Shown here piece by piece: positions 3-14,831 of a DNA stretch of 64,000 nt (positions are counted from its first letter, which is position 1; every line of letters begins with the position of its first letter). The notes under the pieces are model-generated. The model saw only the letters and a program-made list of their open reading frames with translations. It did no database searches and was not told the origin of the DNA. Made by a program: the position numbers and the translations under genes. The stretch spans positions 248,001 to 312,000 of the forward strand of contig NZ_JABAIH010000002.1 of assembly GCF_012641395.1 (NCBI RefSeq), written 5' to 3'. The DNA comes from Rhizobium sp. P32RR-XVIII. GTDB lineage: Bacteria; Pseudomonadota; Alphaproteobacteria; Rhizobiales; Rhizobiaceae.

Positions 3-722
3 GCCTCGATGCTCACCTCCGGATTGATCAATGGCGACCAGAGCATGGTCGTGCCGGTGATCGCAGGCGTTCTCCTTCTCGGTATCCTCATCGGTGCTGT
101 GAATGGAGGCGTCATCATCGCGACTGGCGTGCACCCGCTGATCGTCACGCTCGGCACAGGTGCGGTCATCCAGGGCGTCGCCCTGCTGTATGGGCTCGGT
201 CCCATTGGCAAAGTTCCGAAGGGTTTCGATTATTTCGCCTACGGCCGCCTGCCGGGCGGACTCTCGATCGGCGCTACTTTCGCCGTCGTCCTGTCCCTTC
301 TGGCCGCGTTCCTTCTCGTGAAAACCAGGCTAGGTCGCTACATTTACGCGGTTGGCGACGACCCCCATGCGGCGACGCTGATGGGGCTGCCCAAGACGCG
401 TGTGATCCTGTTGGTCTATATGCTGTCGGGCCTGTTTGCCGCACTGACCGGTGTTTATCTGGTCAGCAGATTCGGCGTTGGTCAGCCTTACACGGGCGCC
501 AACTACACGCTCGCGTCGATCACTCCTGTCGTCGTCGGCGGCACGATGCTGGCGGGTGGCCGCGGCGGCGTGATGGGCACGCTGCTCGGCGTCTATCTCG
601 TGTCGCTGCTCAACAATCTTTTGAACTTTCTTGGCGTGTCGACGCACATCCAGCTCGTCGCGCAGGGATTGGTCATCATCGCCGCCGTTTCCGTCTACGT
701 GGAAAAGAGGAGGATAGCCTAA
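3..722 (+). CDS. CUT2 (ribose-type) ABC transporter permease, 5' partial
   Basis: Inner-membrane permease of a ribose/xylose/inositol-type sugar importer. The frame is open to the left window edge, so the true start lies outside and about 240 residues are visible. Repeated hydrophobic segments and the C-terminal motif GGTMLAGGRGG match the conserved GG-SL-GG-G loop of RbsC-like permeases. The stop TAA shares one base with the ATG of the next permease (TAATG), so the two are translationally coupled. No ATPase or binding protein for this pair is in view; they are presumably upstream. The substrate cannot be read from the sequence. Confidence 0.9.
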   Translation, partial: ASMLTSGLINGDQSMVVPVIAGVLLLGILIGAVNGGVIIATGVHPLIVTLGTGAVIQGVALLYGLGPIGKVPKGFDYFAYGRLPGGLSIGATFAVVLSLLAAFLLVKTRLGRYIYAVGDDPHAATLMGLPKTRVILLVYMLSGLFAALTGVYLVSRFGVGQPYTGANYTLASITPVVVGGTMLAGGRGGVMGTLLGVYLVSLLNNLLNFLGVSTHIQLVAQGLVIIAAVSVYVEKRRIA

Positions 723-1702
723 TGGCCATCGCTAAAGTTAACGAGGCGATCAGTACGTCGAGGTCCCCCACCGGCATTCGCGCAGGTGATATCGGCAGGA
801 AGTACGGAATCTACCTGTTTCTGCTTGCTGCCATTCTCCTGACGACAGCCGTAAGCCCGGCCTTTCTGAGCCCTGCCAACGTCTCGAACATGTTGATGCA
901 GCTAGCGCCGCTCGCCATCGTCGTGATCGGCCAGACCTTCGTCATCCTTGTCCGGGGACTGGATCTTTCGGTCGCATCCGTCATGGCGACCGCGGCGGTC
1001 ATCGCGACCAGCTTCAACGGCCAGAACAGCGATGCGCTACTCATCCTGCTCGCCTGCGTGGCTATGGGTTGTGCGACCGGCTTGGCCAATGGCATCCTGG
1101 TGACGAAACGCAACGTTTCGCCGTTCCTGGCGACGCTCGCAACGATGATCGTTCTTCAGGGACTTCGCTTTGCGGCAACCCAGGGAGCCCCCTCGGGCAA
1201 TGTGCCACCGCTTTATAGATCGCTCGGCTCCGAAACCCTATCCGGCGTGCCTTACAATCTCCTGGTCATGGCGGTGCTGGCGATCTTCTTCGCAATCCTG
1301 CTGCATCGTGCCGCATTTGGCCGGCGCGTCTACATCACCGGCGGAAATCCGATCACGGCGCGTCTCGTCGGCATCTCGGCCGACCGCGTGACCATCCTCT
1401 GCTATATGATCTGCGGTGTCATGGCGGCCGTTGCGGGACTCCTGCTGTCCGGTTTCGTCGGAGTCGTCGACAATTTCGTCGGACGCGGCTTCGAGCTCGA
1501 CTCGATCGTCGCAGCCGTCATGGGCGGCGTCGCCCTCTCGGGAGGAAGAGGGACGATTCCCGGGGCGCTCGCCGGCGCGGCGATCCTGGTCGTCCTTTCA
1601 AACGCGGTGGTCATGGTCGGCATGCCCGTCCAGCTGCAAATTATCGTCAAGGGCATCGTCATCATCGTGGCCGCCAGCCTCTACGTTCGAGCGGTTCGGT
1701 AA
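722..1702 (+). CDS. CUT2 (ribose-type) ABC transporter permease
   Basis: A 326-residue second permease subunit, complete, with about eight to ten hydrophobic segments and the family motifs GLDLSVASVM (near residue 80) and GGVALSGGRG (near 270). It starts on the base at which the preceding permease ends, so the two probably form a heterodimeric channel. A clear Shine-Dalgarno, gaaagggagg, just after its end leads into the first dehydrogenase gene, placing transport and catabolism in one transcript. Family assignment is firm; the substrate is unknown. Confidence 0.92.
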   Translation: MAIAKVNEAISTSRSPTGIRAGDIGRKYGIYLFLLAAILLTTAVSPAFLSPANVSNMLMQLAPLAIVVIGQTFVILVRGLDLSVASVMATAAVIATSFNGQNSDALLILLACVAMGCATGLANGILVTKRNVSPFLATLATMIVLQGLRFAATQGAPSGNVPPLYRSLGSETLSGVPYNLLVMAVLAIFFAILLHRAAFGRRVYITGGNPITARLVGISADRVTILCYMICGVMAAVAGLLLSGFVGVVDNFVGRGFELDSIVAAVMGGVALSGGRGTIPGALAGAAILVVLSNAVVMVGMPVQLQIIVKGIVIIVAASLYVRAVR

Positions 1703-1724: not shown

Positions 1725-2513
1725 ATGAGCGGATCAGTCAACAACAAGGTCGTCATCGTGACCGGCTCCGGCCGTGGCATCGGAGCCGGTATCGCCGCCG
1801 ACCTGGCTGCAAAGGGTGCCAAGGTCGTTATCGCCGATCTGAACGCCGATGCGGCGCAGCAGACCGCATCGAAAATCGCCTCGGACGGTGGAAGCGCGAT
1901 TGCGCTTAGCGTCGATGTTTCGAACCGCGACAGCGTTCAAGCGCTGATCGGCGAAACAGTGTCCCATTTCGGGCGGCTCGACGTCATGTTCAACAATGCC
2001 GGTATCAGCCAGACATGCCCGTTTCTGGAGGTCACCGAAGCAGACTTCAATCGGATCATGAAGATCAATGGCCTCGGCGTCCTGATCGGAACGCAGGAAG
2101 CGGCCAAGCAGATGATCCAGCAAGGTCACGGCGGCAAGATCATCAACACGTCATCGATCGCCGGCAAGCAGGGTTATCCCTTGTTTGCGCATTATTGCGC
2201 CTCGAAGTTCGCCGTCGTGGCGATCACGCAGGCTGCCGCCCGTGCGCTTGCCGAACACAAGATCACCGTCAACTGCTTCGGCCCGGGCGTCGTTGCGACG
2301 GAACTCTGGCAGCAGCTCGACCGGGAGTTCATGGAGCATGGACTGACCTCCAAGCCGGATCAGGCGATCAACGAGTTCTCGCAATCGATTCTGCTCGGCC
2401 GTGTGTCCGTTCCGAGGGACATTGCCGGCGTGACGACATTCCTGGCGTCCGACGCCTCGGACTACATCACCGGCCAGACCGTCATGGTCGATGGCGGCAT
2501 GGTTCTGATCTAA
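1725..2513 (+). CDS. SDR family oxidoreductase (classical)
   Basis: A 262-residue NAD(P)-dependent dehydrogenase of the classical short-chain family. Visible motifs are the Rossmann loop TGSGRGIG (residues ~12-19), NNAG (~90), catalytic Ser in NTSS and the YCASK catalytic Tyr/Lys pair, and a C-terminal ITGQ-VDGG segment typical of 3-oxoacyl/glucose-dehydrogenase-like members. The frame is open further upstream, but the ATG at 1725 follows a strong Shine-Dalgarno (aaagggagg) and gives normal family length. It is the first enzyme gene of the catabolic operon. The substrate is probably a hydroxyl-bearing carbon of the imported compound, which is inference. Confidence 0.9.
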   Translation: MSGSVNNKVVIVTGSGRGIGAGIAADLAAKGAKVVIADLNADAAQQTASKIASDGGSAIALSVDVSNRDSVQALIGETVSHFGRLDVMFNNAGISQTCPFLEVTEADFNRIMKINGLGVLIGTQEAAKQMIQQGHGGKIINTSSIAGKQGYPLFAHYCASKFAVVAITQAAARALAEHKITVNCFGPGVVATELWQQLDREFMEHGLTSKPDQAINEFSQSILLGRVSVPRDIAGVTTFLASDASDYITGQTVMVDGGMVLI

Positions 2514-2535: not shown

Positions 2536-3303
2536 ATGGCACGGTTGGCCAACAAAGTCGCCATCATCACCGGCGGAAGCACCGGCATCGGCGAAGCGAC
2601 TTGCTACCGCTTCGCGGAGGAGGGCGCCAAGGTCGCGATCTTCGATGTCAGCGCCGAACAGGGCACGCGGGTCGCGCAAGCTATCAAGGACAAGGGCGGC
2701 GAGGCCGTCTTCCACAGGGTGGACGTCTCCAACGAGAATGACGTCGCACCGGCGATGGCCGAGGTCGTCGGCGCATGGGGCAAGCTCGACATTCTCGTCA
2801 ACAACGCTGCCGTTACCGGCGTCAACAAGCTCGCCCATGAGGTGACGGTCGACGAGTGGGATCGCATCTTCGCGATCAACGTGCGCGGTGTTTTTCTCTG
2901 CACCAAGCACGCGGTCAAGCCGATGATGGCGGCGAGGGCCGGATCGATCGTCAACTTTTCGTCGATCTATGGCTTGATCGGCAATGACGACCTTCCTCCC
3001 TATCACGCGACCAAGGGCGCGGTTCTTGCCATGACGAAGACCGACGCCGTCTGCTATGCGCCGCACGGCATCCGCGTGAATGCCGTCCATCCGGGCTCGA
3101 CGAAGACGCCGCTGTTCATGAAGGCCGGTGAAACCTACCCCGGCGGCCTCGACCATTATCTCGAAATGATGAAGGCAAAGCATCCGCTGACGCTTGGCGA
3201 GCCCGTCGATGTCGCCAACTGCGTCCTCTTTCTGGCTTCTGACGAAGCCCGTTTCGTGACAGGCAGCAGCTTGGTCTGCGACGGCGGCTACACCGCGCAA
3301 TAA
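2536..3303 (+). CDS. SDR family oxidoreductase (classical)
   Basis: A 255-residue short-chain dehydrogenase with TGGSTGIG at residues ~12-19, NNAA near 90, catalytic Ser in FSSIYG, YHATK (Tyr/Lys), and the C-terminal FVTGSS-CDGG segment. The start follows the Shine-Dalgarno agggaggag, 22 bases after the preceding SDR. It is clearly a different paralogue from its neighbours rather than a recent tandem duplicate. It acts in the cytoplasm, presumably on a successive hydroxyl or carbonyl of the same substrate. Confidence 0.9.
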   Translation: MARLANKVAIITGGSTGIGEATCYRFAEEGAKVAIFDVSAEQGTRVAQAIKDKGGEAVFHRVDVSNENDVAPAMAEVVGAWGKLDILVNNAAVTGVNKLAHEVTVDEWDRIFAINVRGVFLCTKHAVKPMMAARAGSIVNFSSIYGLIGNDDLPPYHATKGAVLAMTKTDAVCYAPHGIRVNAVHPGSTKTPLFMKAGETYPGGLDHYLEMMKAKHPLTLGEPVDVANCVLFLASDEARFVTGSSLVCDGGYTAQ

Positions 3304-3314
3304 CTCAGAAAGGC

Positions 3315-4394
3315 ATGGCAATGAAAGCTGTACGATACTACTCGAAGAAAGACATCCGCGTTGAGGACGTGCCTGCACCGAGCGGACCGCTTGGGGACGA
3401 CATGGTCCTGATCGAACCTCTCGTCTGCGGCATCTGCGGAACGGACCTGCACGAATATATCGCCGGCCCGATCGTCACTCCGGCTACGCCGCACGTCTAC
3501 TCGGGCGCGACGCTGCCGCAGATCCTCGGCCACGAATTTTCCGCCCGTGTGCTCGAGGTCGGCAAGAATGTCACGCATGTCCAGCCGGGTTCGCGTGTTT
3601 CCATCCAGCCGCTGATTTCGCCGCGTGACGACTATTATGGCCGCCGCGGTCTCTTCCATCTCAGCGAAAAGATGGCCTGCGTCGGTCTGTCTTGGGATTG
3701 GGGCGGCATGAGCGAACGCGCCGTCGTCAACGGTTACAACGTCTTCCCGGTACCGGATACCGTCTCCGATATTCAGGCAGCAATGATCGAGCCGGCGGCG
3801 GTGGCACTCTATGGCGTTGACCGCGGCGGTGTCACGAGCGGAAGCAGCGTTCTGGTCTCGGGCGTTGGTCCGATCGGAGCGCTGGTCCTGCTGGCAGCCA
3901 AGGCGGCCGGGGCCACGAAGATCTTTGTGTCCGAACTCAATCCCAACCGGCGCGCGCTGGCGCAAAAGCTCGTTCCCGAAGCGATCGTTTTCGATCCCCG
4001 CGAAACGGATACCGAGAAGCTTTTCCGCGACGAGACCGAGGAGGGTGTCGGTGTCGACGTCGCGCTGGAATGCGTCGGCGCGGAAGCCTCCCTTAACCTC
4101 TGCGCAAAGGCCGTCCGCCGCCAGGGGACTGTCGTTCAGGTCGGTCTTCATGTGAAGCCTGCAGCGATCGACGCAATGCTATGGGCTCTCAAGGATATCA
4201 CTGTCGAAGCGACCTGGTGCTATCCGGTACAGATCTGGCCACGGATCGCCGCGATGATTGGCGCCGGCATCTTCCCGGTCGAAAAGATCGTGACGGCGGA
4301 AATCGCGCCGGAAGACGTCGTCGAAAAGGGCTTCGAAGCACTGCTCGATCCCAAGGCGTCGCACATGAAGATCCTCGTCAACATGAAGGCCTGA
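3315..4394 (+). CDS. Zinc-type medium-chain alcohol dehydrogenase (butanediol/sorbitol dehydrogenase-like)
   Basis: A 359-residue MDR-superfamily dehydrogenase. The catalytic zinc site is suggested by GICGTDLHE (Cys) and LGHEFS (His-Glu), and the NAD-binding loop by GVGPIGAL (near 190-200). The region that normally carries the four structural-zinc cysteines (about residues 95-115) instead reads SPRDDYYGRRGLFHLSEK, without that Cys cluster, so the structural zinc is probably absent. The start could be the ATG at 3315 or the one two codons on. It lies between two SDR genes in the operon. Likely a polyol or hydroxyketone dehydrogenase; the substrate is unknown. Confidence 0.85.
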   Translation: MAMKAVRYYSKKDIRVEDVPAPSGPLGDDMVLIEPLVCGICGTDLHEYIAGPIVTPATPHVYSGATLPQILGHEFSARVLEVGKNVTHVQPGSRVSIQPLISPRDDYYGRRGLFHLSEKMACVGLSWDWGGMSERAVVNGYNVFPVPDTVSDIQAAMIEPAAVALYGVDRGGVTSGSSVLVSGVGPIGALVLLAAKAAGATKIFVSELNPNRRALAQKLVPEAIVFDPRETDTEKLFRDETEEGVGVDVALECVGAEASLNLCAKAVRRQGTVVQVGLHVKPAAIDAMLWALKDITVEATWCYPVQIWPRIAAMIGAGIFPVEKIVTAEIAPEDVVEKGFEALLDPKASHMKILVNMKA

Positions 4395-4396
4395 TC

Positions 4397-5164
4397 ATGA
4401 AGAACCCGATGGACATCAATGGGCGCAAGATCCTGGTCACGGGCGCGGCCGGCGGAATCGGCAGCGCCGCCTGCCGCTATCTGGCCTCGCTGGGTGCGAC
4501 GGTGATAGCAGCCGATCGTGACGCCTCGGTCGAAAAGACTCGCGACGAGATCCGCGCCGCGGGAGGCAAGGCCGAGAGCGTTGTCTTCAACGTCGCCGAC
4601 AAGAATTCTGTCGAGGCGGCCGCGGCGAGCGTCCGGGAGGGTTTCGGGCCGTTGGACGGGATCTTCGCCAATGCCGGCATGTCGTATGAACGGCCTGCCC
4701 TGGATCACAGCGAGGCGGATTGGCGCACTGTGATGTCGGTGAATCTCGACGGCGTCTTCTGGACCGTCCAGGCTTTCGGCCGATCGATGATCGAAGCCGG
4801 GAAGGGGGCTATCGTCATGACGGCTTCCATCGCCGGCGTGAAGGCGGTGCGGCCGGAACTGCATGTCGGCTACGACGTGTCCAAAGCAGGTGTTGCCCAT
4901 ATGTGCCGCGTCCTTGCCGCCGAGTGGGCAAAATCGGGCGTGCGCGTCAACGCCGTCGGGCCTGGCTACACCGATACCGTCATGCTGGCCGAAGTCGGCC
5001 GAACTCAGCCTGCGGTCATGAAGCAATGGATGGACGACACTCCGGTCGGCCGTCTGATCAAGCCGGAGGAAATCGCTTCCGCTGCCGCCTTCCTTCTGTC
5101 CGATGCGGCGAGCGGCATCACCGGGCATCTGCTGATGGTTGACGGCGGCTATTCGATCGCCTGA
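4397..5164 (+). CDS. SDR family oxidoreductase (classical)
   Basis: A 255-residue third classical SDR of the cluster, with cofactor loop TGAAGGIG near residue 14, NAG in FANAGMS, YDVSK catalytic pair and a terminal ITGH-VDGG segment. The frame is open upstream into the preceding gene; the ATG at 4397 lies two bases after that gene's stop and gives the usual family length. The tight spacing implies coupled translation. Together with the other dehydrogenases it suggests several oxidations of one polyhydroxylated ring or chain. Confidence 0.88.
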   Translation: MKNPMDINGRKILVTGAAGGIGSAACRYLASLGATVIAADRDASVEKTRDEIRAAGGKAESVVFNVADKNSVEAAAASVREGFGPLDGIFANAGMSYERPALDHSEADWRTVMSVNLDGVFWTVQAFGRSMIEAGKGAIVMTASIAGVKAVRPELHVGYDVSKAGVAHMCRVLAAEWAKSGVRVNAVGPGYTDTVMLAEVGRTQPAVMKQWMDDTPVGRLIKPEEIASAAAFLLSDAASGITGHLLMVDGGYSIA

Positions 5165-5183: not shown

Positions 5184-5468
5184 ATGCATTATATCGTTCA
5201 TTGCCTCGACCACGAAGGCGGCGTCGAAAAGCGCCTTGCCAACTACGACGCCCACAAGGCCTATCTCGCCAACGCGTCGACCAAGACCGTCATCTCCGGG
5301 CCGCTTCTGGCCGATGACAACGAGACCATGATCGGCTCTCTCTTCCTTCTTGAAGCCGACAGCAAGGAAGAAGTCGTCGCGTTCAACAAGGCCGATCCCT
5401 TCACGAAGGCGGGTGTCTGGAGGACCGTCAATATCCACCCTTTCAGCAAGCGGGTGGACAATCGATGA
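5184..5468 (+). CDS. YciI-like (EthD/muconolactone-isomerase-fold) small protein
   Basis: A 94-residue protein resembling the YciI family, small ferredoxin-like alpha+beta dimers. It begins MHYIVHCLDHEG and contains YDAHKAYLA and an acidic SGPLLADDNE segment followed by KADPF, the usual YciI layout. The start follows gaaagg, and the stop overlaps the next ATG (ATGA). A second, diverged copy lies at 14532. Family members are sometimes found with ring-cleavage pathways, as lactone isomerases or dehydratase-like enzymes; that role is inference. Confidence 0.8.
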   Translation: MHYIVHCLDHEGGVEKRLANYDAHKAYLANASTKTVISGPLLADDNETMIGSLFLLEADSKEEVVAFNKADPFTKAGVWRTVNIHPFSKRVDNR

Positions 5469-6478
5469 CGATGATTGAGGAAAGGCCAGTCATCGCAGCC
5501 CTCGTCGGTCTCGGCTGGTGGGGCAAGAAGATGGCGAGCCTCGTCAATAGCGGCGGGGCGGAGATGCATTTCGTTCGCGGCATCGACCCGAATCCGGAGA
5601 CCGAGACCTTTGCGAAAGAGGCCGGTCTGCAGTTCTCCACCGATCTTGCCGAAGCGCTCGCCGATCCGAACATCGAGGCGGTGGTGCTCGCCACGCCGCA
5701 TTCGCTCCATCAACAGCAGATCGCTCAGGTCGTCGCGGCCGGAAAGCATGTCTTCTGTGAAAAGCCGCTGGATTTGACACGAGCCGGCGCCGAGGCCTCG
5801 GTGGCTCTATGCAGGAGGGCGGGCGTCGTCCTCGGAATGGGTCATGAACGCCGCTTTGAACCGCCGATCGCCGAAATCCTGACGGCGGCCGGTGAGGGAA
5901 GGCTTGGCCGTCTGCTGCAGATCGAAGCGAATTTCAGCCACGACAAGTTCCTTGGTCTCGATCCGTCGAATTGGCGGTTGAAGGCCGACCAGGCGCCGGC
6001 AGGCGGCATGACGGCGACCGGAATTCATTTAACGGACCTTGCCGTCAAGCTGATGGGACCGGCAAAGGATGTTCGGGTGATTTGCGAAAACCTTGCCTCG
6101 CAAATACCCCAGGGCGACACGATGAGTGCTCACATCCGCTTCGGAAACGGCGGGTCGGCCTATGTCTCCGCCACGCTCGCCACTCCGTTCGTCTCCCGTT
6201 TTGCCGTCTACGGCACGCTCGGATGGATCGAGGTGCGCGACAAGGCGCATGTCGAAGCGCCCGATGGCTGGGTGGTGACGGAAGGGTGGAAGGACAAACC
6301 GATCACGGTGCGGGAAGTCGCACCTGCCGAGCCGGTCCGCGACAATTTGCGAGCCTTCGCCCGGGCCGTGCGCGGCCAAAAGGACTATCCGATCACTGGC
6401 GAGGACATGATCAACAATATCGCATTGCTGGAGGCGATCGTTCGTTCCGCCCGAACGGGCGCCCTGGAACAGGTTTGA
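5465..6478 (+). CDS. Gfo/Idh/MocA family oxidoreductase
   Basis: A 337-residue NAD(P)-dependent sugar or cyclitol dehydrogenase. The N-terminal Rossmann motif GLGWWGKK is at residues ~13-20, EKPLDLT holds the conserved EKP near 100, GHERRFEP follows, and a C-terminal alpha/beta domain is present. The ATG overlaps the YciI-like stop by four bases. The family includes inositol 2-dehydrogenase, glucose-fructose oxidoreductase and dehydrogenases of anhydrosugars, which fits the CUT2 importer. The exact substrate is undetermined. Confidence 0.88.
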   Translation: MTMIEERPVIAALVGLGWWGKKMASLVNSGGAEMHFVRGIDPNPETETFAKEAGLQFSTDLAEALADPNIEAVVLATPHSLHQQQIAQVVAAGKHVFCEKPLDLTRAGAEASVALCRRAGVVLGMGHERRFEPPIAEILTAAGEGRLGRLLQIEANFSHDKFLGLDPSNWRLKADQAPAGGMTATGIHLTDLAVKLMGPAKDVRVICENLASQIPQGDTMSAHIRFGNGGSAYVSATLATPFVSRFAVYGTLGWIEVRDKAHVEAPDGWVVTEGWKDKPITVREVAPAEPVRDNLRAFARAVRGQKDYPITGEDMINNIALLEAIVRSARTGALEQV

Positions 6479-6488
6479 GGAGGACGAC

Positions 6489-7472
6489 ATGAAGGCTCTG
6501 GTTTTCGAAGCGCCGGAAAAGCCGGTTATCGTGGAGACGGCCATGCCGGACATCTCCCCGAACGAGGTGCTGGTACGCACGCGGGCAGTCGGCATCTGCC
6601 ACTCCGATTACGAATTGCTGGCGGGGCGCTACATCATCCCCATCTCCTATCCCGTGACGCCCGGCCACGAATGGAGCGGCGAGATCGTCGAAGTCGGGCG
6701 CAACGTGACGGGATTCCGTAAAGGGGACCGCGTAGTCGGCGAATGCGTCGTGCGCACCCCCGAGCGCCTGCATCATTTCGGCTTTTCGCTGAGCGGCGCC
6801 GATCGCGAGTTTTTCGCCGTCAATCCCGAGTGGCTTCACAAGCTTCCCGATGCGGTCGATGACAAGAAGGCGGCCTTGATCGAACCCTTTACCTGCGGTT
6901 TTTACGCAGTCCTGCGTTCGGGCGGCACGAATGCCAGCGAAACCGTTGTAGTGTCCGGCGGGGGTACGATCGGACTGGTCTCGGCCGCCGCGGCAATCGG
7001 CATGGGCGCCCGCGTTATCGTCGTCGACCCGCTGGCGTCGCGTCGCGAGGTCGCGAAAAAGCTCGGAGCCGATGTCGCCATCGATCCGACGGATGGCGGC
7101 GCGGCTGAAAAAATCCGCGACCTTACGCGCGGAAACGGCGCCGATCTCGTGATCGAAGCATCCGGGCATGACGCGTCGCTGGCCGCCGCCTTCGACTACG
7201 CTCGCGAAGACGGTCGCATGTCGATGGTCGGCATAAACATCGGCCGCAAGGTCCCCGTGGTTCTCGGACAGATCCAGATGAAGAACCTGACCGTCCGCGG
7301 ATGCATCGGATCGCCAGGCGTCTGGCCTGCCGCCATCCGCTTCCTGGAAAGAACCGGCATCGATTTGTCGCCGATCCAGACGCATGACTTTGCTCTGACG
7401 GAAGCGGTCGAGGCCTTCGCCTTCGGGCAGGACCCGACGAAAAGCATCAAAATCACTCTGTTGAACGGTTAA
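6489..7472 (+). CDS. Zinc-type medium-chain alcohol dehydrogenase
   Basis: A 327-residue MDR dehydrogenase with Cys in VGICHSDYE and GHEWSGE for the catalytic metal, and the nucleotide loop SGGGTIGLV near 155-165. As in the MDR gene at 3315, the segment expected to hold structural-zinc cysteines (ECVVRTPERLHHFGF) lacks the Cys cluster. It sits 10 bases after the Gfo/Idh gene behind gaggagga. It resembles L-iditol/threonine dehydrogenase-type proteins; a polyol or alicyclic alcohol substrate is likely by context only. Confidence 0.85.
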   Translation: MKALVFEAPEKPVIVETAMPDISPNEVLVRTRAVGICHSDYELLAGRYIIPISYPVTPGHEWSGEIVEVGRNVTGFRKGDRVVGECVVRTPERLHHFGFSLSGADREFFAVNPEWLHKLPDAVDDKKAALIEPFTCGFYAVLRSGGTNASETVVVSGGGTIGLVSAAAAIGMGARVIVVDPLASRREVAKKLGADVAIDPTDGGAAEKIRDLTRGNGADLVIEASGHDASLAAAFDYAREDGRMSMVGINIGRKVPVVLGQIQMKNLTVRGCIGSPGVWPAAIRFLERTGIDLSPIQTHDFALTEAVEAFAFGQDPTKSIKITLLNG

Positions 7473-7477
7473 AATCC

Positions 7478-8536
7478 ATGAGCAAGCACGCACTGATCGT
7501 CGGTGTTACTGGGATCACCGGCAGCAACCTCGCAGAACACCTGCTGTCGCAGGGCGGTTGGACGGTTTCGGGCCTGTCGCGCTCCGAAAGCCTGGTCTCC
7601 GGCGTCAAGACGCTTCGATGCGATCTCGTCGACGCAGGCTCGGTGCAGGCCGCGCTGGAGAATACGAAGCCCAGCCACGTCTTCATCACGGCCTGGTCCC
7701 GGCAGGACACGGAGGCAAAGAACTGCGAGGTAAACGGAGCCATCGTCCGCCATGTGCTCGATGCACTGAAAGGACGTGGCGTCGAGCATGTCGCTCTGAC
7801 CACCGGCACCAAGCACTATCTCGGTCCGTTCGAATCCTATGCCAAGACGCAGCCGGAAACTCCGTTCCGCGAGGAGCAGGAGCGTCTGCCTGGCGAAAAC
7901 TTCTACTACGTCCAGGAGGACGAAGTCTTTGCAGCAGCAGCACGCGATGGCTTTACCTGGTCCATCCACCGTCCGCATACTCTGATCGGCTATGCGGTCG
8001 GAAATGCGATGAACATGGCCGCCACGCTCGGCGTCTATGCATCGATCTGCAAAGAGACCGGCAGGCCGTTCGTCTTTCCCGGCTCTCCGCAGCAATGGCA
8101 GGCCGCCACCGACGTCACCGATACGCGGCTGCTCGCCAGGCATCTCAAATGGGCGTCGACGACGAAAGCCGCGGCCAACCTTGCATTCAACGTCGTCAAT
8201 GGCGAGGTCTTCCGATGGAAATGGCTCTGGCCACGGCTTGCGAGCTATTTCGGCATCGAGGCCGCGGTCTATTCGGGAGAGCCGAACCCGCTTGAAAACC
8301 AGATGGCGGATGCTGCGCCGATCTGGGATCGGATAGTGAAGAAATATGATCTTCAACCCAACGCTCTCTCCCGTGTCGCCTCGTTCTGGCATTCGGATGC
8401 CGATCTCGGACGGCAAGTCGAGACATTCAACGATATGGGGCGTAGCCGGAAACTGGGCTTTCTGGACTATCAGGACACGACCCAATCCTTCACCGACGCC
8501 TTCGATCGCCTTCGGGCAGATCGCATCATTCCCTAA
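7478..8536 (+). CDS. PRISE-like enone reductase (progesterone 5-beta-reductase/iridoid synthase-like SDR)
   Basis: A 352-residue atypical short-chain reductase. The cofactor loop is GVTGITGSN near the N-terminus. TGTKHYLGPF carries the PRISE catalytic Lys, and ENFYYVQED carries the catalytic Tyr in the NFYYxxED context that marks this group; RPHTLIGY and WQAATDVTD also fit. Characterised PRISE enzymes, mainly from plants, reduce the C=C bond of enones with NADPH. Here the gene follows an MDR and precedes the dioxygenase, so an unsaturated cyclic ketone intermediate is a plausible substrate. Function is inferred from motifs. Confidence 0.85.
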   Translation: MSKHALIVGVTGITGSNLAEHLLSQGGWTVSGLSRSESLVSGVKTLRCDLVDAGSVQAALENTKPSHVFITAWSRQDTEAKNCEVNGAIVRHVLDALKGRGVEHVALTTGTKHYLGPFESYAKTQPETPFREEQERLPGENFYYVQEDEVFAAAARDGFTWSIHRPHTLIGYAVGNAMNMAATLGVYASICKETGRPFVFPGSPQQWQAATDVTDTRLLARHLKWASTTKAAANLAFNVVNGEVFRWKWLWPRLASYFGIEAAVYSGEPNPLENQMADAAPIWDRIVKKYDLQPNALSRVASFWHSDADLGRQVETFNDMGRSRKLGFLDYQDTTQSFTDAFDRLRADRIIP

Positions 8537-8551
8537 AGCAAGGAGTATCGG

Positions 8552-9433
8552 ATGAGCGCGGAGACCTTGGGAACAATGGCGCCAACCGGCTATTTCACGG
8601 AAGAGAATTCCGTCGAGACGGTCAATGCCCGAATGGGAAAGGACGTCAATCCACGCCTTGCCCAGGTAATGGCTTGCCTGGTGAAACATCTCCATAATTT
8701 TGCGCGGGAGATCGAACTCACGCAGGAGGAGTGGGAATTCGGCATCGATTTCCTGACCCGGACAGGCCAGATCTGCACGCAGGAGCGACAGGAATTCATC
8801 CTCCTGTCCGATACGCTCGGCCTTTCCATGCTGGTCGATGCCATCAACAATCGAAGGCCGGAGGGCGCGACGGAAAATACGGTCTTCGGCCCTTTCCATG
8901 TCGAAGGCGCTCCCGTGCGTCAGATGGGCGATCAGATCTGCCTGGACGGCAAGGGAGAAAGCTGTCTTTTCACAGGCAGTGTGCTCGATCACGACGGCAA
9001 TCCTGTTGCCGGCGCCCGTATTGACGTCTGGTCGGACAATGCGGAAGGCTACTACGACGTTCAGCAGCCCGACATCCAACCGAAATGGAATAATCGCGGT
9101 GTTTTCGTCACGGGCGCGGACGGACGCTATAGCTTCGTCGGCATCAAGCCGGTTTCCTATCCGATCCCCGACGATGGGCCGGTAGGAAAAATGCTCGCCG
9201 CCCTTGGGCGGCATCCGTATCGACCGGCGCACATGCACTACATGGTTCGTGCAGACGGCTTTCAGAAGCTCGTGACCCACACGTTCGTCGGCCGAGACAC
9301 CTATCTGGAATCGGACACTGTCTTTGGAGTGAAGAAGACGCTTGTCGCACCCTTTGATCGTGTCGAGCACGGCAACACCCTCTGGCGCTCGGATTTTGAT
9401 TTCGTCCTCGCGCGGCCAGAACAGGCGCGATAG
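8552..9433 (+). CDS. Intradiol ring-cleavage dioxygenase, hydroxyquinol 1,2-dioxygenase type
   Basis: A 293-residue non-haem Fe(III) dioxygenase. The N-terminal helical dimerisation region (~1-100) is that of catechol/hydroxyquinol 1,2-dioxygenases. Iron ligands are recognisable as Tyr in NAEGYYD, Tyr in PVSYPIP, and two His in RPAHMHYMV. The gene follows aaggag and is immediately upstream of a maleylacetate reductase, which points to hydroxyquinol (1,2,4-trihydroxybenzene) rather than catechol as substrate, since ring opening then gives maleylacetate. It is cytoplasmic. A catechol or chlorocatechol substrate cannot be excluded from sequence alone. Confidence 0.88.
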   Translation: MSAETLGTMAPTGYFTEENSVETVNARMGKDVNPRLAQVMACLVKHLHNFAREIELTQEEWEFGIDFLTRTGQICTQERQEFILLSDTLGLSMLVDAINNRRPEGATENTVFGPFHVEGAPVRQMGDQICLDGKGESCLFTGSVLDHDGNPVAGARIDVWSDNAEGYYDVQQPDIQPKWNNRGVFVTGADGRYSFVGIKPVSYPIPDDGPVGKMLAALGRHPYRPAHMHYMVRADGFQKLVTHTFVGRDTYLESDTVFGVKKTLVAPFDRVEHGNTLWRSDFDFVLARPEQAR

Positions 9434-9442
9434 GAGGGGCAG

Positions 9443-10507
9443 TTGGAAAATTTCATCTACAATGCAAATCCCGGTCGCGTCATTTTTGGCAGCGGCACGG
9501 TTTCCCGGCTTGGGGAAGAAGCCGACAGGCTGGGCGCTAAATCCGTCCTGGTTCTCTCCACGCCGGAGCAGGCGAAGCAGGCGGAAGACATTGCGCAGCA
9601 CCTAGGCTCTCGTGTTGCCGGCATTTATTCCAAAGCGCAGATGCACACGCCGGTGGACGTGACATCGGATGCCATGCGGACCGTCGAGCGGCTCGGCGCC
9701 GACGCGGTTGTGTCGATCGGCGGCGGATCGACGACGGGTCTCGGCAAGGCGATCGCCTATCGCACGGATCTGCCGCAGATTGTCGTGCCGACGACGTATG
9801 CCGGATCGGAGGCCACTCCCATCCTCGGGGAGACAGAAGGGGGCCGAAAGGTCACCAAGTCCGATCCGCGCATCCTACCCGAAGTCATCGTTTATGATGT
9901 CGATCTGACGCTGAGCCTGCCCGTTCCGCTTTCGGTGACAAGCGGTATCAATGCGATCGCCCATGCCGTCGAGGCGCTTTACGCCAGGGAAACAAATCCC
10001 ATCATTTCGATGATGGCGGAGGAGGGGATTGCAGCGATCGCCCGTGCTTTGCCGCTCATCCAGGCAAACCCACAGGACACGGCTGCACGCGCCGATGCCC
10101 TCTATGGCGCCTGGCTTTGCGGCGTCTGCCTCGGATCGGTGGGAATGGCGCTGCATCACAAGCTCTGCCACACGCTGGGCGGCATGTTCAACCTGCCGCA
10201 TGCGCCTATGCATACTGCCGTTCTGCCCCATGTGGTGGCTTACAACAGCAAGGCCGCTCCGGCTGCCATGACACGTATCAGCAGGGCGCTCGGAGGAGGC
10301 GAGCCAGCCGCGGCTCTTTATGACCTTGCGAAGCGATTGGGGGCTGTCATGTCGTTGAAAGATCTCGGCATGCCCGCAAACAGTGTCGGCGACGCAGTCG
10401 AACAGGCGATGTCGAATGCCTACTGGAATCCGCGGGCTCTCGAAAAGAACGCGCTGAGCGAATTGCTTGAACAGGCCTACCGAGGAGAACCGCCGGCGTC
10501 AGCGTGA
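9443..10507 (+). CDS. Maleylacetate reductase
   Basis: A 354-residue iron-type alcohol dehydrogenase family enzyme that reduces maleylacetate to 3-oxoadipate. The family signature is clear: an N-terminus FIYNANPGRVIFGSGT, GGGSTTGLGKAIA cofactor loop, PTTYAGSEATPI, and HKLCHTLGG-NLPHAPMH for the metal region. The start is TTG at 9443, directly after taggagggg; there is no ATG that gives the complete N-terminus. It ends the enzyme operon, and a 153-base gap follows before the second transporter. Confidence 0.92.
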   Translation: MENFIYNANPGRVIFGSGTVSRLGEEADRLGAKSVLVLSTPEQAKQAEDIAQHLGSRVAGIYSKAQMHTPVDVTSDAMRTVERLGADAVVSIGGGSTTGLGKAIAYRTDLPQIVVPTTYAGSEATPILGETEGGRKVTKSDPRILPEVIVYDVDLTLSLPVPLSVTSGINAIAHAVEALYARETNPIISMMAEEGIAAIARALPLIQANPQDTAARADALYGAWLCGVCLGSVGMALHHKLCHTLGGMFNLPHAPMHTAVLPHVVAYNSKAAPAAMTRISRALGGGEPAAALYDLAKRLGAVMSLKDLGMPANSVGDAVEQAMSNAYWNPRALEKNALSELLEQAYRGEPPASA

Positions 10508-10602: not shown

Positions 10603-10660
10603 GCCAATAAACTGAGGCTTCCGGTAAAGTCCGGCACGCGCATACATGGGAGGATTACTA

Positions 10661-11968
10661 ATGCATGGCCACGAAGCTCGCGGCGTGAATCGTAGAACTG
10701 TGCTTAAATATACGGCTGCGATTGCGGCATCATCGATCGCGTCCCCCTTTGTCTTGAGGAAGACGGCGAGAGCATCCGATGAAACAATAACTATACTCAA
10801 TACCTTCCCGACGCTGGCAAATGAATACTGGCAAGGTTGGGATGCGGGCTGCAGGCTGGCGACCGAACAGCTTGGCCTTAAATATATCGCGCAGACATTC
10901 GAAGATTCAGTCGACAAGCAGATCGCGCAGATCGAGCAGGCCCCTTCGCTCGGCGTGAACGCCGTCGTCACGTTTGCGCAAAACGCCGAGGTCATCAAAG
11001 CCTTGGCGGCCACCGCAAGTCAGGTCGGCGTCAAGCTCGCCAACGCCCATTCGACAGCTGCCTGGCTCGATGCCGACGACCCTGCGTATGCAGGTTCCTA
11101 TATGCTCTATAGCCAGCCGGATAATATTCGCGGCATCGCCGCCATGGCACAGGCCCTCTTCGACAAGATCGGTAACAAGGGCAAGGTGCTCTACGTCGCC
11201 GGATTGCCGGGCAACTTCTCCGCAGATTCGCGCGCCGCCGGCGTCAAGCTGGCACTCGAGAACAATCCGGATATCGAGCTTGTCGGCGAGCAGCCGGGCG
11301 GCGAAAACCGTGTGGCAGCCCGTCCAATCGTCGAAAATCTTCTGACGGCCAATCCCGATGTAAGCGCCATTATTTCCTATAACGACGACACGGCCATAGC
11401 CGTCCTCGATGTCTTGCGTGAGCGAGGACTGACCGGCTCCATTTTCACCGCCGGAAACGATGCCACGCGCGAAATGCTGAACCGCATGAAAGAAGACAAG
11501 AGCGCGCTGGGCACGGTCTCGATCAATGCGCCTTTCATGACGGGCTACTCGGTCGTAACCCTCTATGATGCCCTGGAAGGCATTACCTACGATCCGCTCG
11601 AGAAAATGCGGTATTTCGATTCCGTCTTCCTCGATTCTCCCGAGGTCGCCGAAAAATATCTCAGCGCCATGGACCAGAGCGGCAAGATTAACTTCGACTT
11701 CAAGTCGATGTCGCGCCATCTGAACGGCGACAATTGGAAGATCCAATGGGGCATGGAAGTCATCGACCCATCGAACTTCTGGGGGAAAGTCGGTTCCATG
11801 CAGTCGCTCAAACCCGGCGGCTGGACGTTGCCGGAAAGCGTCGAGGCCTCCCTCAAGGCCGGCAATGCCGACAAGCTCAACAAGATGTACCGGGACCACT
11901 TCGTCCCCGGTCCACTGAGCGACGTCGCCGGCCAGACACGCGCCAAGAAAACCGTCCTCGGATTCTGA
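10661..11968 (+). CDS. CUT2-type sugar ABC transporter substrate-binding protein, Tat-like signal
   Basis: A 435-residue periplasmic binding protein of the RbsB-like (peripla_BP_4) class, longer than the usual ~320 because of an extended C-terminus. The signal region carries NRRTVLK, a twin-arginine-like motif, then a hydrophobic stretch and a possible ARA cleavage site. The mature start ETITILNTFPTLANEYW resembles sugar-binding proteins. The ATG at 10661 follows gggagg; an upstream in-frame start at 10646 has no ribosome site. It heads the second CUT2 transporter; a stable hairpin separates it from the ATPase gene. Confidence 0.87.
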   Translation: MHGHEARGVNRRTVLKYTAAIAASSIASPFVLRKTARASDETITILNTFPTLANEYWQGWDAGCRLATEQLGLKYIAQTFEDSVDKQIAQIEQAPSLGVNAVVTFAQNAEVIKALAATASQVGVKLANAHSTAAWLDADDPAYAGSYMLYSQPDNIRGIAAMAQALFDKIGNKGKVLYVAGLPGNFSADSRAAGVKLALENNPDIELVGEQPGGENRVAARPIVENLLTANPDVSAIISYNDDTAIAVLDVLRERGLTGSIFTAGNDATREMLNRMKEDKSALGTVSINAPFMTGYSVVTLYDALEGITYDPLEKMRYFDSVFLDSPEVAEKYLSAMDQSGKINFDFKSMSRHLNGDNWKIQWGMEVIDPSNFWGKVGSMQSLKPGGWTLPESVEASLKAGNADKLNKMYRDHFVPGPLSDVAGQTRAKKTVLGF

Positions 11969-11973
11969 TTTTC

Positions 11974-12002
11974 TTGAGGAGCGCCGCAACGGCGCTCCTC
12001 AA
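11974..12002 (+). promoter_or_regulatory. Intercistronic stem-loop after the binding-protein gene
   Basis: A perfect 13-bp stem (ttgaggagcgccg paired with its complement) closes on the triloop CAA. It begins six bases after the binding-protein stop and has no following T-run. Such hairpins between binding-protein and ATPase genes commonly protect the upstream message or attenuate the downstream one, giving excess binding protein. Part of the stem contains gaggag, which is buried when folded. Confidence 0.7.
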
Positions 12003-12025
12003 TCCTGCAGATCGGACCGGCATCA

Positions 12026-13537
12026 ATGAAGCAGCATCTCGAACTACGTTCCATCACGAAACGCTATCCTGGCGTGACCGCGTTGCGGGACGTGTCCTTT
12101 TGTATCGACCATGGCGAAACCCTAGGGCTCGTTGGCGAGAACGGCGCTGGTAAAAGCACGCTTCTCGATATTCTCTGCGGTCTCCAGACGCCCGACGAAG
12201 GTCAGCTCGTTCTCCATGGCGAGGTCGTCGAATTCGATCAGCCGCGCGAGGCGACCCATGCGGGCATATTCCGCGTCCACCAGGAACAGGCGCTCATTCT
12301 CGTCTACCCGATCTTTCAGAATCTCTTTCTCGGTCTCGAACACCATTTCTCCCGCTTGGGGATTATGCAGTTCGCCGAAATGCAGGCGCGAGCCCAAAGA
12401 ATTTTGAACGAGCTCGGCATCGCACTTGATGCGAAGGCCGTCACCGGAGACCTCAATTTCGGCACCCGGCAGCTTATCGAAATCGCGCGTGTCGTTGCCC
12501 AATCGGAAATGCTGAAGATCGATCGGCCGCTCGTCCTCCTTGATGAGCCGACAGCCTCACTCTCCGGCCCGGAACTCGATCTCTTTTACGGAGTCGTCCG
12601 GCTGCTGAAAGAAAAGTTCAGGGCTTCGGTCGTATTCATATCGCATCGTCTCGACGAGGTGCTGCACCTCTGCGATCACGTGGTCGTTCTCAAGGACGGT
12701 CAGGTCGTCGATGCCGATGTCTCCGAACCGACGGAGGCGAAGCTCCACAGCCTAATGGTCGGACGGGAGCGGCTGACGGATTTTTATGCGACCAACCGGC
12801 AGCGTTCCGAATTCGGCTCCCCAGTGCTCGAACTGACTGACTTCACCACCGAATTTTTCCGCAATGTGACGCTCTCGGTCCGCGAAGGAGAAATCGTCGG
12901 CATTGGCGGACTGGTCCAATCCGGCAAGACCGAGTTGGGACGCGCGATATTGGGCGTCGAGGCAAGCCGCGGCGGAGTCAGAATCCTGGGCCGCGATGTC
13001 AGCCCGCTTACGGCATCGGATCGCATTGAACTCGGTGTCGGCTACGTGCCGCTTCACCGTCATCTTGATGGCGTGATGCTTGGCCGATCGATACGGGACA
13101 ACATCATCCTCCCCTCGCTCGACCGTTTCGCGCGCTGGGGCATTCTGGACTTCCCCAAAGCTGCGAGTTTCGTATCGGAACGGGTAGATGAGTTGCGGAT
13201 CAAGGCGCCAAACGACGCGGCTCTCGTCGGCACGCTTAGCGGCGGCAATCAGCAGAAGGTGGTGCTGGCCAAATGGCTGGCGCGAAATCCTCGGCTACTG
13301 ATCGTCGATAACCCCACGCGCGGCGTCGATGCGGGCGCGAAGGAGGAAATTTATCGTCTTCTCCGGGATGTGACGGCTGGCGGATGCGCCGTCCTGCTGA
13401 TTTCCGATGACCTCGTCGAACTGATCGAGCTTTCGAACACCCTCTACTTTCTTTCGAGCGGGTCGTTGTCGGCGGCCATTCCCGCTCCTGTCGAGAACAA
13501 GCCGAAAGAGCAAGACGTCGTTGCGATGATGTTTTGA
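12026..13537 (+). CDS. CUT2 sugar ABC transporter ATP-binding protein (two fused NBDs)
   Basis: A 503-residue RbsA/MglA-like ATPase with two nucleotide-binding domains. The first has Walker A GENGAGKST and Walker B LVLLDEPTAS but a degenerate signature (FGTRQ), as is usual. The second has GLVQSGKT, a canonical LSGGNQQ signature and Walker B LLIVDNPTRGVD. In that second Walker B the catalytic glutamate expected after Asp is Asn, which is unusual. It pairs with the binding protein upstream and the permease downstream. The Shine-Dalgarno is weak, so expression may depend on coupling or on the upstream hairpin. Confidence 0.9.
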   Translation: MKQHLELRSITKRYPGVTALRDVSFCIDHGETLGLVGENGAGKSTLLDILCGLQTPDEGQLVLHGEVVEFDQPREATHAGIFRVHQEQALILVYPIFQNLFLGLEHHFSRLGIMQFAEMQARAQRILNELGIALDAKAVTGDLNFGTRQLIEIARVVAQSEMLKIDRPLVLLDEPTASLSGPELDLFYGVVRLLKEKFRASVVFISHRLDEVLHLCDHVVVLKDGQVVDADVSEPTEAKLHSLMVGRERLTDFYATNRQRSEFGSPVLELTDFTTEFFRNVTLSVREGEIVGIGGLVQSGKTELGRAILGVEASRGGVRILGRDVSPLTASDRIELGVGYVPLHRHLDGVMLGRSIRDNIILPSLDRFARWGILDFPKAASFVSERVDELRIKAPNDAALVGTLSGGNQQKVVLAKWLARNPRLLIVDNPTRGVDAGAKEEIYRLLRDVTAGGCAVLLISDDLVELIELSNTLYFLSSGSLSAAIPAPVENKPKEQDVVAMMF

Positions 13538-13561
13538 GCAGCCAGGAATCAAGGAATTGAA

Positions 13562-14503
13562 ATGTCGAAGATAAATGCCCTCGGAAGGTTCACGCCTTTC
13601 ATCGCCGCAATTCTCCTGATCGTGTTCTTCTCCGTCATGCACAGTGCATTTCTGACTTGGCCGAACCTCTGGAACATCATTCGCCAGTCCTCGGTGTTAC
13701 TTGTAGCATCCATGGGGGTGACTTTCGTCATCCTCATCGGCTCGATTGATCTGTCGGTCGGCGCCGTCATGACGTTGTCCGCTATCTGTTCGATTACCCT
13801 AGTGCCGGTCATCGGTGAGAGCGGCATTCTTGTCGGCCTGATCGTCGGCGGCCTATGCGGCGCGTTCAACGGCCTTCTCAATTCTATCCTGAAGCTCCCG
13901 AGCTTTCTTGTCACGCTTGGTTCATTGTTCATCTTCCAGAGCCTCGGCTTGATCATATCCGGCGGGCGGCCGTTGCCATGGACGACGCCCACATCGAGCG
14001 CACTTGCTGGCGGCGTCGTGTTCGGATCTTTTCCCAAGATTGGCCTATGGGCGATCGCCGTTCTGCTCATGTGTGCGTTTGTTGCCCGATACACGCGCTT
14101 TGGCCAATATATGTACGCAATCGGCGACAACGAGCGCACGACCCGGATGTCGGGTATTTCGACGACACGGCTGAAGGTTGCCGTCTTCGTCGTGGCCGGT
14201 GCGATTTCCGGACTCGCGGGAATCTTGCTCGGAATCCGAACCTTTTCGGCCTCTCCCGGCATGGGTGATCCGTTTCTTCTGGATACGATTGCGGCGGTCG
14301 TCCTCGGCGGCACGCTGCTCACCGGCGGCGTCGGCGGACCGCTGCGTACCGTCTTTGGTGTGCTGACCATCGTCATCCTGGCAAACGGCATGACGCTCCT
14401 GCAAGTCGATCCCTTCTTCCAGGTCGGCATTCGCGGCGCGGTCGTCATCCTGGCTGTCTTGATCACCACCAAGCGCGGCCGTCTGGATCAAATTGTCAAG
14501 TAA
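13562..14503 (+). CDS. CUT2 sugar ABC transporter permease
   Basis: A 313-residue RbsC-like permease with about eight to ten membrane segments, the GSIDLSVGAVM motif near residue 65 and GGTLLTGGVGG near 260. The start follows caagga. This transporter has only one permease gene in view, whereas the system at the left edge has two, so this one probably works as a homodimer. The substrate is unknown. Confidence 0.9.
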   Translation: MSKINALGRFTPFIAAILLIVFFSVMHSAFLTWPNLWNIIRQSSVLLVASMGVTFVILIGSIDLSVGAVMTLSAICSITLVPVIGESGILVGLIVGGLCGAFNGLLNSILKLPSFLVTLGSLFIFQSLGLIISGGRPLPWTTPTSSALAGGVVFGSFPKIGLWAIAVLLMCAFVARYTRFGQYMYAIGDNERTTRMSGISTTRLKVAVFVVAGAISGLAGILLGIRTFSASPGMGDPFLLDTIAAVVLGGTLLTGGVGGPLRTVFGVLTIVILANGMTLLQVDPFFQVGIRGAVVILAVLITTKRGRLDQIVK

Positions 14504-14531: not shown

Positions 14532-14831
14532 ATGCTCGCCATTCGTATCGCACTGTCGAATCCGGAAAAAGCTGAAGCTCGCACGGGCTATATCGAGGAT
14601 CACAAAAGGTACTTGCGATCCGGCCGGCTTCGCATTGTGCAATCAGGACCTATTCTGGACGAATTCGGAGGAGCCACTGGAGGCGTTGTTGTTGCCGAGG
14701 TCAATTCCATCGACGAGATGCAAGATTTCAATTCCGGGGACCCATTTGTGGTCCACGGGGTATATGAGAGCGTTCGTATTTATGAATGGCAACCGACAAT
14801 CACCGAGGCGGGTCAACAGAGCCTGCGATGA
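14532..14831 (+). CDS. YciI-like small protein
   Basis: A 99-residue YciI/EthD-fold protein with an ARTGYIEDHKRYLRSGRL segment containing the conserved His, then SGPILDEFG and SGDPFVVHGVY. It is only distantly similar to the copy at 5184. The start follows caaggag, 28 bases after the permease stop, so it closes the second transport operon. A pairing of YciI-like proteins with both halves of the cluster suggests a substrate-linked enzymatic or binding role; no activity can be read from it. Confidence 0.78.
   Translation: MLAIRIALSNPEKAEARTGYIEDHKRYLRSGRLRIVQSGPILDEFGGATGGVVVAEVNSIDEMQDFNSGDPFVVHGVYESVRIYEWQPTITEAGQQSLR

Follow-up and report, generated by a model that had tools for sequence, protein, structure and literature searches.

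A predicted PRISE-type enone reductase of Rhizobium belongs to a conserved dehydrogenase module with two alternative endings

The PRISE gene and its locus

A 64,000-nucleotide stretch of the Rhizobium sp. P32RR-XVIII genome (contig NZ_JABAIH010000002.1, positions 248,001 to 312,000), here termed the window, contains a gene predicted to code for an NADPH-dependent enone reductase of the progesterone 5-beta-reductase/iridoid synthase (PRISE) family. It belongs to a conserved module, SDR1-MDR1-Gfo-MDR2-PRISE, which is accompanied by a ribose-type ATP-binding cassette (ABC) importer and comprises short-chain (SDR) and medium-chain (MDR) dehydrogenases as well as a Gfo/Idh/MocA dehydrogenase (Gfo). 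In the window, the same-strand gene order is SDR1, SDR2, MDR1, SDR3, YciI, Gfo, MDR2, PRISE, a hydroxyquinol-type dioxygenase and a putative maleylacetate reductase, with ribose-type importer genes flanking the operon on both sides. An earlier, sequence-only reading rightly placed the PRISE gene between an MDR gene and a ring-cleavage gene (MDR 6489-7472, dioxygenase from 8552); MDR2 ends 5 bp upstream of the PRISE gene and the dioxygenase gene begins 15 bp downstream. The YciI/TftG-like gene (5184-5468) was absent from that reading. The features of the locus are:

9..1702, + strand: two permeases of a ribose-type (CUT2) ABC importer, the first of which may begin upstream of the window
1734..2513, + strand: SDR1, short-chain dehydrogenase of the upper module; nearest NCBIfam model acetoin reductase/2,3-butanediol dehydrogenase, just below cut-off
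2536..3303, + strand: SDR2, short-chain dehydrogenase, present in part of the related clusters only
3315..4394, + strand: MDR1, zinc-type medium-chain dehydrogenase of the upper module; PDB butanediol dehydrogenase (8.5e-66)
4400..5164, + strand: SDR3, short-chain dehydrogenase, present in part of the related clusters only
5184..5468, + strand: YciI-family, TftG-related protein, candidate eliminating/aromatising enzyme; best PDB match TftG (E = 8e-13)
5465..6478, + strand: Gfo/Idh/MocA dehydrogenase of the upper module; nearest NCBIfam model inositol 2-dehydrogenase IolG (113.6, cut-off 355)
6489..7472, + strand: MDR2, medium-chain dehydrogenase, marker of the upper module; best NCBIfam model IolM (171.4, cut-off 450)
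7478..8536, + strand: predicted PRISE-type NADPH-dependent enone reductase, 352 aa, ATG start; K112/Y143 correspond to Digitalis K147/Y179
8552..9433, + strand: intradiol dioxygenase of the hydroxyquinol 1,2-dioxygenase type; PDB 8r2x, 6-chlorohydroxyquinol dioxygenase (E = 2e-137)
9443..10507, + strand: iron-type alcohol dehydrogenase, putative maleylacetate reductase by context only; no NCBIfam model at cut-off
10646..14503, + strand: second ribose-type ABC importer (binding protein 10646-11968, ATPase 12026-13537, permease 13562-14503)
14532..14831, + strand: second YciI-family protein, kept in part of the related clusters

The binding protein and ATPase of the first importer are encoded just upstream of the window (L002:15060-17747). 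The PDB entry for TftG is a 5-chloro-2-hydroxyhydroquinone dehydrochlorinase. The five best PDB matches of the dioxygenase are (chloro)hydroxyquinol dioxygenases, PnpC or an intradiol dioxygenase, with catechol enzymes far behind, and the enzyme is on sequence grounds assigned to the hydroxyquinol type, hydroxyquinol being its putative substrate.

Family membership and predicted active site

Plant PRISE enzymes are studied for their part in cardenolide and iridoid formation. The window protein matches the Pfam PRISE model (PF22917) at 82.4 bits (cut-off 27) and the Epimerase model at 49.1 bits. In a PDB sequence search its best ten distinct matches are all plant progesterone 5-beta-reductases or iridoid synthases (E = 3e-77 to 7e-68), and the next-ranked match is a sugar-nucleotide reductase (E = 8e-8). 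The segments TGTKHYLGPF (residues 109-118) and NFYYVQED (residues 141-148) had been taken as PRISE catalytic motifs from the sequence alone, which is borne out by the Pfam score, the PDB ranking and the alignment of K112 and Y143. Digitalis K147, H148, G151, Y179 and H201 align with window residues K112, H113, G116, Y143 and H164, and both K112 and Y143 are invariant in 30 rows (the window and 29 bacterial relatives). R35, which follows the second strand and corresponds to the NADPH-type Arg63, is also invariant in these rows, while no Lys occurs at the position after the Tyr where it is usual in SDRs. Passages of Tarrio et al. 2011 (PMC3144213) ascribe the NADPH-type role to Arg63 and describe His148, Gly151 and His201 as the signature of the bacterial VEP1 cluster I and of land plants; the window PRISE shares this signature with cluster I (H113, G116 and H164).

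An AlphaFold2 model built from 30 sequences (the window and 29 relatives) reached a mean predicted local distance difference test score (pLDDT) of 90.8 and a predicted template modelling (TM) score (pTM) of 0.90. In a Foldseek search with this model the top 20 chains were all plant PRISEs (TM score by query 0.89-0.93, 35-38% identity), followed at ranks 21-50 by epimerase-type SDRs (TM score 0.60-0.69). The predicted fold is nearer to progesterone 5-beta-reductase/iridoid synthase than to epimerases. Structure prediction, which the sequence-only reading had proposed for the active-site Lys/Tyr geometry, returned the plant PRISE fold, the placement of Lys and Tyr being taken from the alignment and not from the coordinates. 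Identity as an ordinary epimerase is ruled out by the Pfam score, the PDB ranking, the predicted fold and the active site, and family membership, active-site residues and predicted fold together point to a 1,4-enone reductase of the PRISE family within the SDR superfamily.

The window protein is homologous over its whole length to the plant PRISEs (progesterone 5-beta-reductases of Digitalis, Plantago and Arabidopsis and the iridoid synthase of Catharanthus), with which it shares the Lys/Tyr/His/Gly site and the NADPH-type Arg. Its pocket, however, differs from that of the Digitalis enzyme (F343 to His, G204H, N205T, M214A and I347D), and it is encoded in a catabolic operon, whereas the plant enzymes function in specialised metabolism. 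The plant clamp residue F153 is kept as F118, but the small-enone Phe clamp, which consists of both F153 and F343, is incomplete, with H305 at position 343. Passages of PMC11643720 state that plant PRISEs reduce 2-cyclohexen-1-one and that the clamp favours small enones such as this one. Phe occupies position 343 in all three of the more distant bacterial rows; the assignment of L141-L143 to cluster II, from their low identity and different active site, is our own.

By its conservation in related sequences, the window PRISE gene is a real gene. It is the single PRISE match in its genome and is kept in 19 Rhizobium-group loci at 78-90% identity, in all of which it directly follows MDR2, 6-7 bases past the last aligned MDR codon, stop codon included. 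The open-licence PMC papers listed in a literature search include no bacterial PRISE with an assigned role and none visibly linked to catabolism; no characterised bacterial member is among those listed, in agreement with the statement in the sequence-only reading that bacterial PRISEs are poorly characterised. Passages of Tarrio et al. 2011 (PMC3144213) trace much lateral transfer of VEP1 involving Rhizobiales and place VEP1 in a pathogenicity island and beside antibiotic/toxin clusters, proposing roles in plant interaction but no catabolic module, and the words 'operon', 'inositol' and 'dioxygenase' do not turn up when its main text is searched. The enzyme family is already known, and the pathway around the window PRISE was not found in the literature searched.

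Linkage of the PRISE to the MDR2 module

Among 297 genomes of the family, 62 give a PRISE match (E <= 1e-3), 39 of them at an identity of at least 50% (hand count), and ten have MDR2 (E <= 1e-90), all ten of which are also PRISE-positive (hypergeometric probability 8.5e-8, or 5e-10 with the stricter PRISE count). Among 397 genomes of the order, PRISE (E <= 1e-60) occurs in 33 and MDR2 in six, again with PRISE in each of the six (2.1e-7); these hypergeometric chances ignore the kinship between genomes. The window genome is in both samples, giving 15 distinct MDR2 genomes, every one PRISE-positive, and in 11 of these PRISE lies at most 20 kb from MDR2. A further survey covered 35 loci of at least 10 kb with MDR2 (at least 44% tblastn identity), from which the window was excluded and L130 was dropped as the same place as L040. 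PRISE is present in 33 of these loci, but many of them were found via PRISE, so that this proportion is biased and the counts that started from MDR2 are the fair ones. The PRISE is strongly linked to the cluster; its position within the cluster varies.

A phylogeny with plant and bacterial PRISEs, also proposed in the sequence-only reading, was constructed from 63 rows (58 from an earlier 97-row set and five new ones; 19 of 116 rows, all from Chryseobacterium, had been left out before). The three plant enzymes form one group (100/100), while 21 of the 24 cluster-linked bacterial PRISEs, including that of the window, group with L056 in one clade across Alphaproteobacteria and Actinobacteria. 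The tree, like the sequence, active site and predicted fold, supports membership of the window protein in the PRISE family. Stand-alone rows make up 32 of the 63, a label which for short loci means about 1.5 kb of flank and no MDR2 in the genome, except for L018, whose genome has an MDR2 cluster elsewhere. The PRISEs of L095 (Paraburkholderia) and of L012 and L016 (other genera of the window's family) fall, with strong local support, inside a 33-row stand-alone clade (99/97). The cluster-linked label changes five times on the tree (bootstrap range 5-6), and a single change occurs in none of 200 bootstrap trees. There is one moderately supported 'catabolic' PRISE clade, besides three well-supported other recruitments. 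In the L012 genome, locus L125 encodes an MDR2 that is 83% identical to that of the window, with a PRISE only 59% identical and 14 kb away. The pattern looks as though one PRISE had displaced another, and such renewed uptake of an enzyme of this type is evidence that the PRISE reaction is needed.

Two interchangeable endings of the module

YciI and the dioxygenase are both present in 26 of the 35 MDR2 loci and both missing from the other nine; as the 26 include 20 close rhizobial relatives, they do not represent 26 independent events. The YciI match of L126, at 42%, was under the threshold. Five of the 26 (L043, L044, L045, L048 and L049) lack the putative maleylacetate reductase at the locus, and all five genomes encode a homologue elsewhere (53-59%). 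The window-type ending consists of the TftG-like YciI and the hydroxyquinol dioxygenase, and the other ending of an M24-family protein and 2-oxoacid-dehydrogenase subunits (E1a, E1b and E2). The latter accompanies the upper module in L146 (L146:2241-6741; M24, E1a, E1b and E2), in L144 and L145, which continue the Terracoccus and Terrabacter contigs of L071 and L086 (M24, E1a and E1b), in L147 (M24, after which the contig ends), in L069 (M24 only) and in L098 (E1/E2 weakly, 30-34%). The dioxygenase query (E <= 1e-30) retrieved nothing from three Terracoccus/Terrabacter isolate genomes (L071, L082 and L086) or from five metagenome-assembled and perhaps incomplete genomes (L056, L064, L066, L069 and L098, no MDRs being seen in L056 and L064), and nothing at E <= 1e-20 from the genome of L147 (G428). 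In L148 (G396) neither ending is seen, and a dioxygenase lies about 14 kb further on.

PRISE travels with MDR1, Gfo and MDR2, and YciI with the dioxygenase constitutes a separable ending. A module with two endings indicates that adjacency to ring cleavage is not the key, and the PRISE would most likely act upstream, its ring intermediate being open to aromatisation as well as to another mode of opening. The sequence-only reading had derived its role from the place next to the ring-cleavage gene, an argument not supported by the varying position of the PRISE in the cluster or by the nine of 35 loci with the MDR-PRISE module and no dioxygenase nearby, several of them in genomes without a dioxygenase match; the enone intermediate and alicyclic precursor it proposed remain plausible and are better supported by the two endings. 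The cyclohexenone it named as an example is known only as a test substrate of plant PRISEs.

YciI relatives also occur in L131-L138 without PRISE or MDR2; several of them have ABC importer genes as neighbours, and some have a dioxygenase or a maleylacetate reductase homologue next to them. These stretches are perhaps sister pathways for other ring substrates.

Proposed pathway and alternative roles

TftG, TftH and TftE function in the hydroxyquinol branch of 2,4,5-trichlorophenoxyacetic acid (2,4,5-T) and chlorophenol breakdown. The window resembles this branch in its TftG-like YciI, dioxygenase and putative maleylacetate reductase. In contrast to that branch, no aromatic monooxygenase was recognised among the proteins scanned, with no flavin-type aromatic hydroxylase among the 18 region proteins scanned with Pfam, and sugar-type importers, Gfo, MDR and SDR enzymes and PRISE are encoded instead; breakdown of a chlorinated aromatic was rejected on these grounds. 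Similarity to the Iol pathways lies in the ribose-type import and in the best NCBIfam matches of Gfo (IolG) and both MDRs (the scyllo-inosose 3-dehydrogenase IolM), which hint at a ring polyol. The three dehydrogenases nevertheless miss the cut-offs of these models (113.6/355 for Gfo, 155.6/450 for MDR1 and 171.4/450 for MDR2), and no IolB, IolD or IolE model is among the NCBIfam matches listed, up to 25 per protein, for the ten operon proteins. Canonical inositol breakdown was rejected, given the sub-threshold module dehydrogenases and the location of iolE elsewhere in the genome. The binding proteins of both importers resemble ribose/allose-type ones in the PDB, and a passage of PMC3454389 describes a binding protein of this type that binds myo-inositol in Sinorhizobium; reading the substrate from these proteins was abandoned, as their PDB matches are many sugar-binding proteins of similar score from which no ligand is readable.

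On balance, the favoured model is that the PRISE serves as an enone reductase in the upper part of a pathway that breaks down a sugar-like ring compound after its import, the compound being most likely a cyclitol or cyclitol relative. It would enter by the ribose-type ABC system, the Gfo, MDR and SDR enzymes would turn its ring hydroxyls into ketones, and loss of water beta to a ketone would yield an enone. By analogy with the plant PRISEs, the enzyme would then transfer hydride from NADPH to the beta carbon of the carbonyl-activated double bond, with K112 and Y143 stabilising the enolate, so that dehydration and reduction would amount to a net deoxygenation. In the window type, the TftG-like YciI may aromatise the PRISE product to hydroxyquinol, which the dioxygenase would cleave and the putative maleylacetate reductase would convey to 3-oxoadipate. 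Where relatives carry the other ending instead, this upper module would feed a route that dispenses with the dioxygenase. Substrate, order of steps and PRISE activity are here inferred from the gene set and the plant analogy. Conversion of inositol to hydroxyquinol (C6H12O6 - 3 H2O = C6H6O3) is redox-neutral, so oxidation needs a matching reduction, which the PRISE could supply, and since a route from quercitol needs net oxidation, a fully hydroxylated ring or its methyl ether is a slightly better guess. An alicyclic and probably cyclitol-like substrate is supported, not proven. A wider and more doubtful proposal, offered tentatively, is an undescribed pathway from a fully or largely hydroxylated alicyclic ring at the cyclitol level to hydroxyquinol without an aromatic hydroxylase, through oxidation, elimination, enone reduction by PRISE and aromatisation by YciI, followed by intradiol cleavage, the upper module being also coupled to a non-aromatic ending in Actinobacteria and other Alphaproteobacteria. 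Among the open-licence papers listed in the literature search, none visibly describes a pathway linking cyclitol, inositol or quercitol to hydroxyquinol, and no paper on TftG dehydrochlorinase with hydroxyhydroquinone was found.

Several observations weigh against the favoured model. No dehydratase is evident in the upper module, and the IolM/IolG scores are so far below their cut-offs that the chemistry is placed only loosely. The genome has two iolE genes over the cut-off for ordinary inositol breakdown, which makes myo-inositol unlikely as the sole substrate, and an ABM-family 'monooxygenase' is encoded about 12 kb before the first importer gene. Position 343 is His in all 88 cluster-I bacterial rows (21 close operon relatives including the window, eight actinobacterial, seven from other clusters or close kin and 52 stand-alone, with L018, L056 and L057 outside all groups of this count); this change of the clamp speaks against a simple transfer of the plant substrate preference, and the natural substrate class is not readable from the plant PRISEs. 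Two MDR2 clusters have no PRISE nearby (L124 in G017 and L149 in G355), both genomes carrying one elsewhere, and in G174 and G275 the PRISE is on another contig, their MDR2 contig or stretch being short. Support is only moderate (89/78) for the clade uniting the window PRISE and its actinobacterial counterparts. A dioxygenase was also found in two of ten non-rhizobial-type genomes searched (L061 and L057) and in five of six further genomes, namely G492 (L146, 49%), G584, G396, G160 and G355, in the last inside its own cluster.

The many stand-alone bacterial PRISEs (32 of 63 tree rows) and the three clusters with a PRISE from the stand-alone clade would suit a general protective role instead of a pathway step, the PRISE detoxifying reactive enones or quinones that escape from the pathway or come from plants. 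This is unlikely in view of the PRISE in all 15 MDR2 genomes of the two samples, within 20 kb of MDR2 in 11 of them, and directly after MDR2 in the 19 named rhizobial loci. A role as the last step before ring cleavage, in which the PRISE would reduce 2-hydroxy-1,4-benzoquinone, a TftG-type elimination product, to hydroxyquinol, comes near to what the sequence-only reading implied; it is kept at a lowered standing and considered decidedly unlikely. Quinones are ene-diones and the redox balance would equal that of the favoured model; the gene is flanked by MDR2 and the hydroxyquinol dioxygenase, the operon also contains a TftG-like gene, and several module-bearing genomes that lack a nearby dioxygenase have one elsewhere. 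Yet YciI pairs with the dioxygenase and PRISE with MDR2, nine of the 35 loci hold the PRISE-MDR module without YciI or dioxygenase, and some of these genomes have no dioxygenase match. It is improbable, finally, that the protein is an ordinary SDR, either a ketone reductase/dehydrogenase on the ring substrate or an enone-forming dehydrogenase driven by aromatisation. Its neighbours are dehydrogenases and the invariant His at position 343 means that plant substrate rules may not carry over, but the PRISE-specific K147, H148, G151, Y179 and H201 are all retained, and the Lys that SDRs usually carry after the Tyr is absent (motif logic from passages of PMC3144213).

The tightly co-occurring gene set narrows the natural PRISE substrate to ring intermediates of one pathway, and the two interchangeable endings give a hint about the nature of this intermediate, which must permit aromatisation as well as another mode of opening. 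The conserved cluster gives a little-studied bacterial PRISE family a likely and testable job. Were the cyclitol reading true, plant-associated rhizobia would turn a plant ring polyol into an aromatic, a new rhizosphere carbon chemistry, and the family would be a source of stereoselective small-enone reductases. Were the hydroxyquinol route true, bacterial PRISEs would have a physiological role in a natural polyol-to-aromatic route outside shikimate/quinate chemistry.

Flanking genes and further observations

Promoter-like sites in the region were no commoner than in shuffled sequences, and terminator-like sites were within the shuffle spread. The upstream flank carries another ABC system together with two ketopantoate-reductase-like genes and single HIBADH-like, divergent regulator-like, SDR and ABM-domain genes. 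Of the tandem ketopantoate-reductase-like (ApbA) genes (L002:4812-7134, + strand), the second recurs in several related clusters and could encode an enzyme for an intermediate of the pathway. About 4.3 kb upstream of the window start and divergent from the operon, a 592-aa protein (L002:11922-13700, - strand) combines an N-terminal helix-turn-helix-like region, recognised by eye, with an SBP_bac_1 solute-binding domain (residues 203-473); it has 16 members among the 38 stretches clustered and may have arisen from a binding protein as a sensor-regulator. Among the plasmid-borne relatives of the PRISE, the nearest five (79.5-86.9% identity) sit on Rhizobium and Sinorhizobium plasmids of 0.7-2.6 Mb, suggesting that the cluster may be spread on large plasmids.
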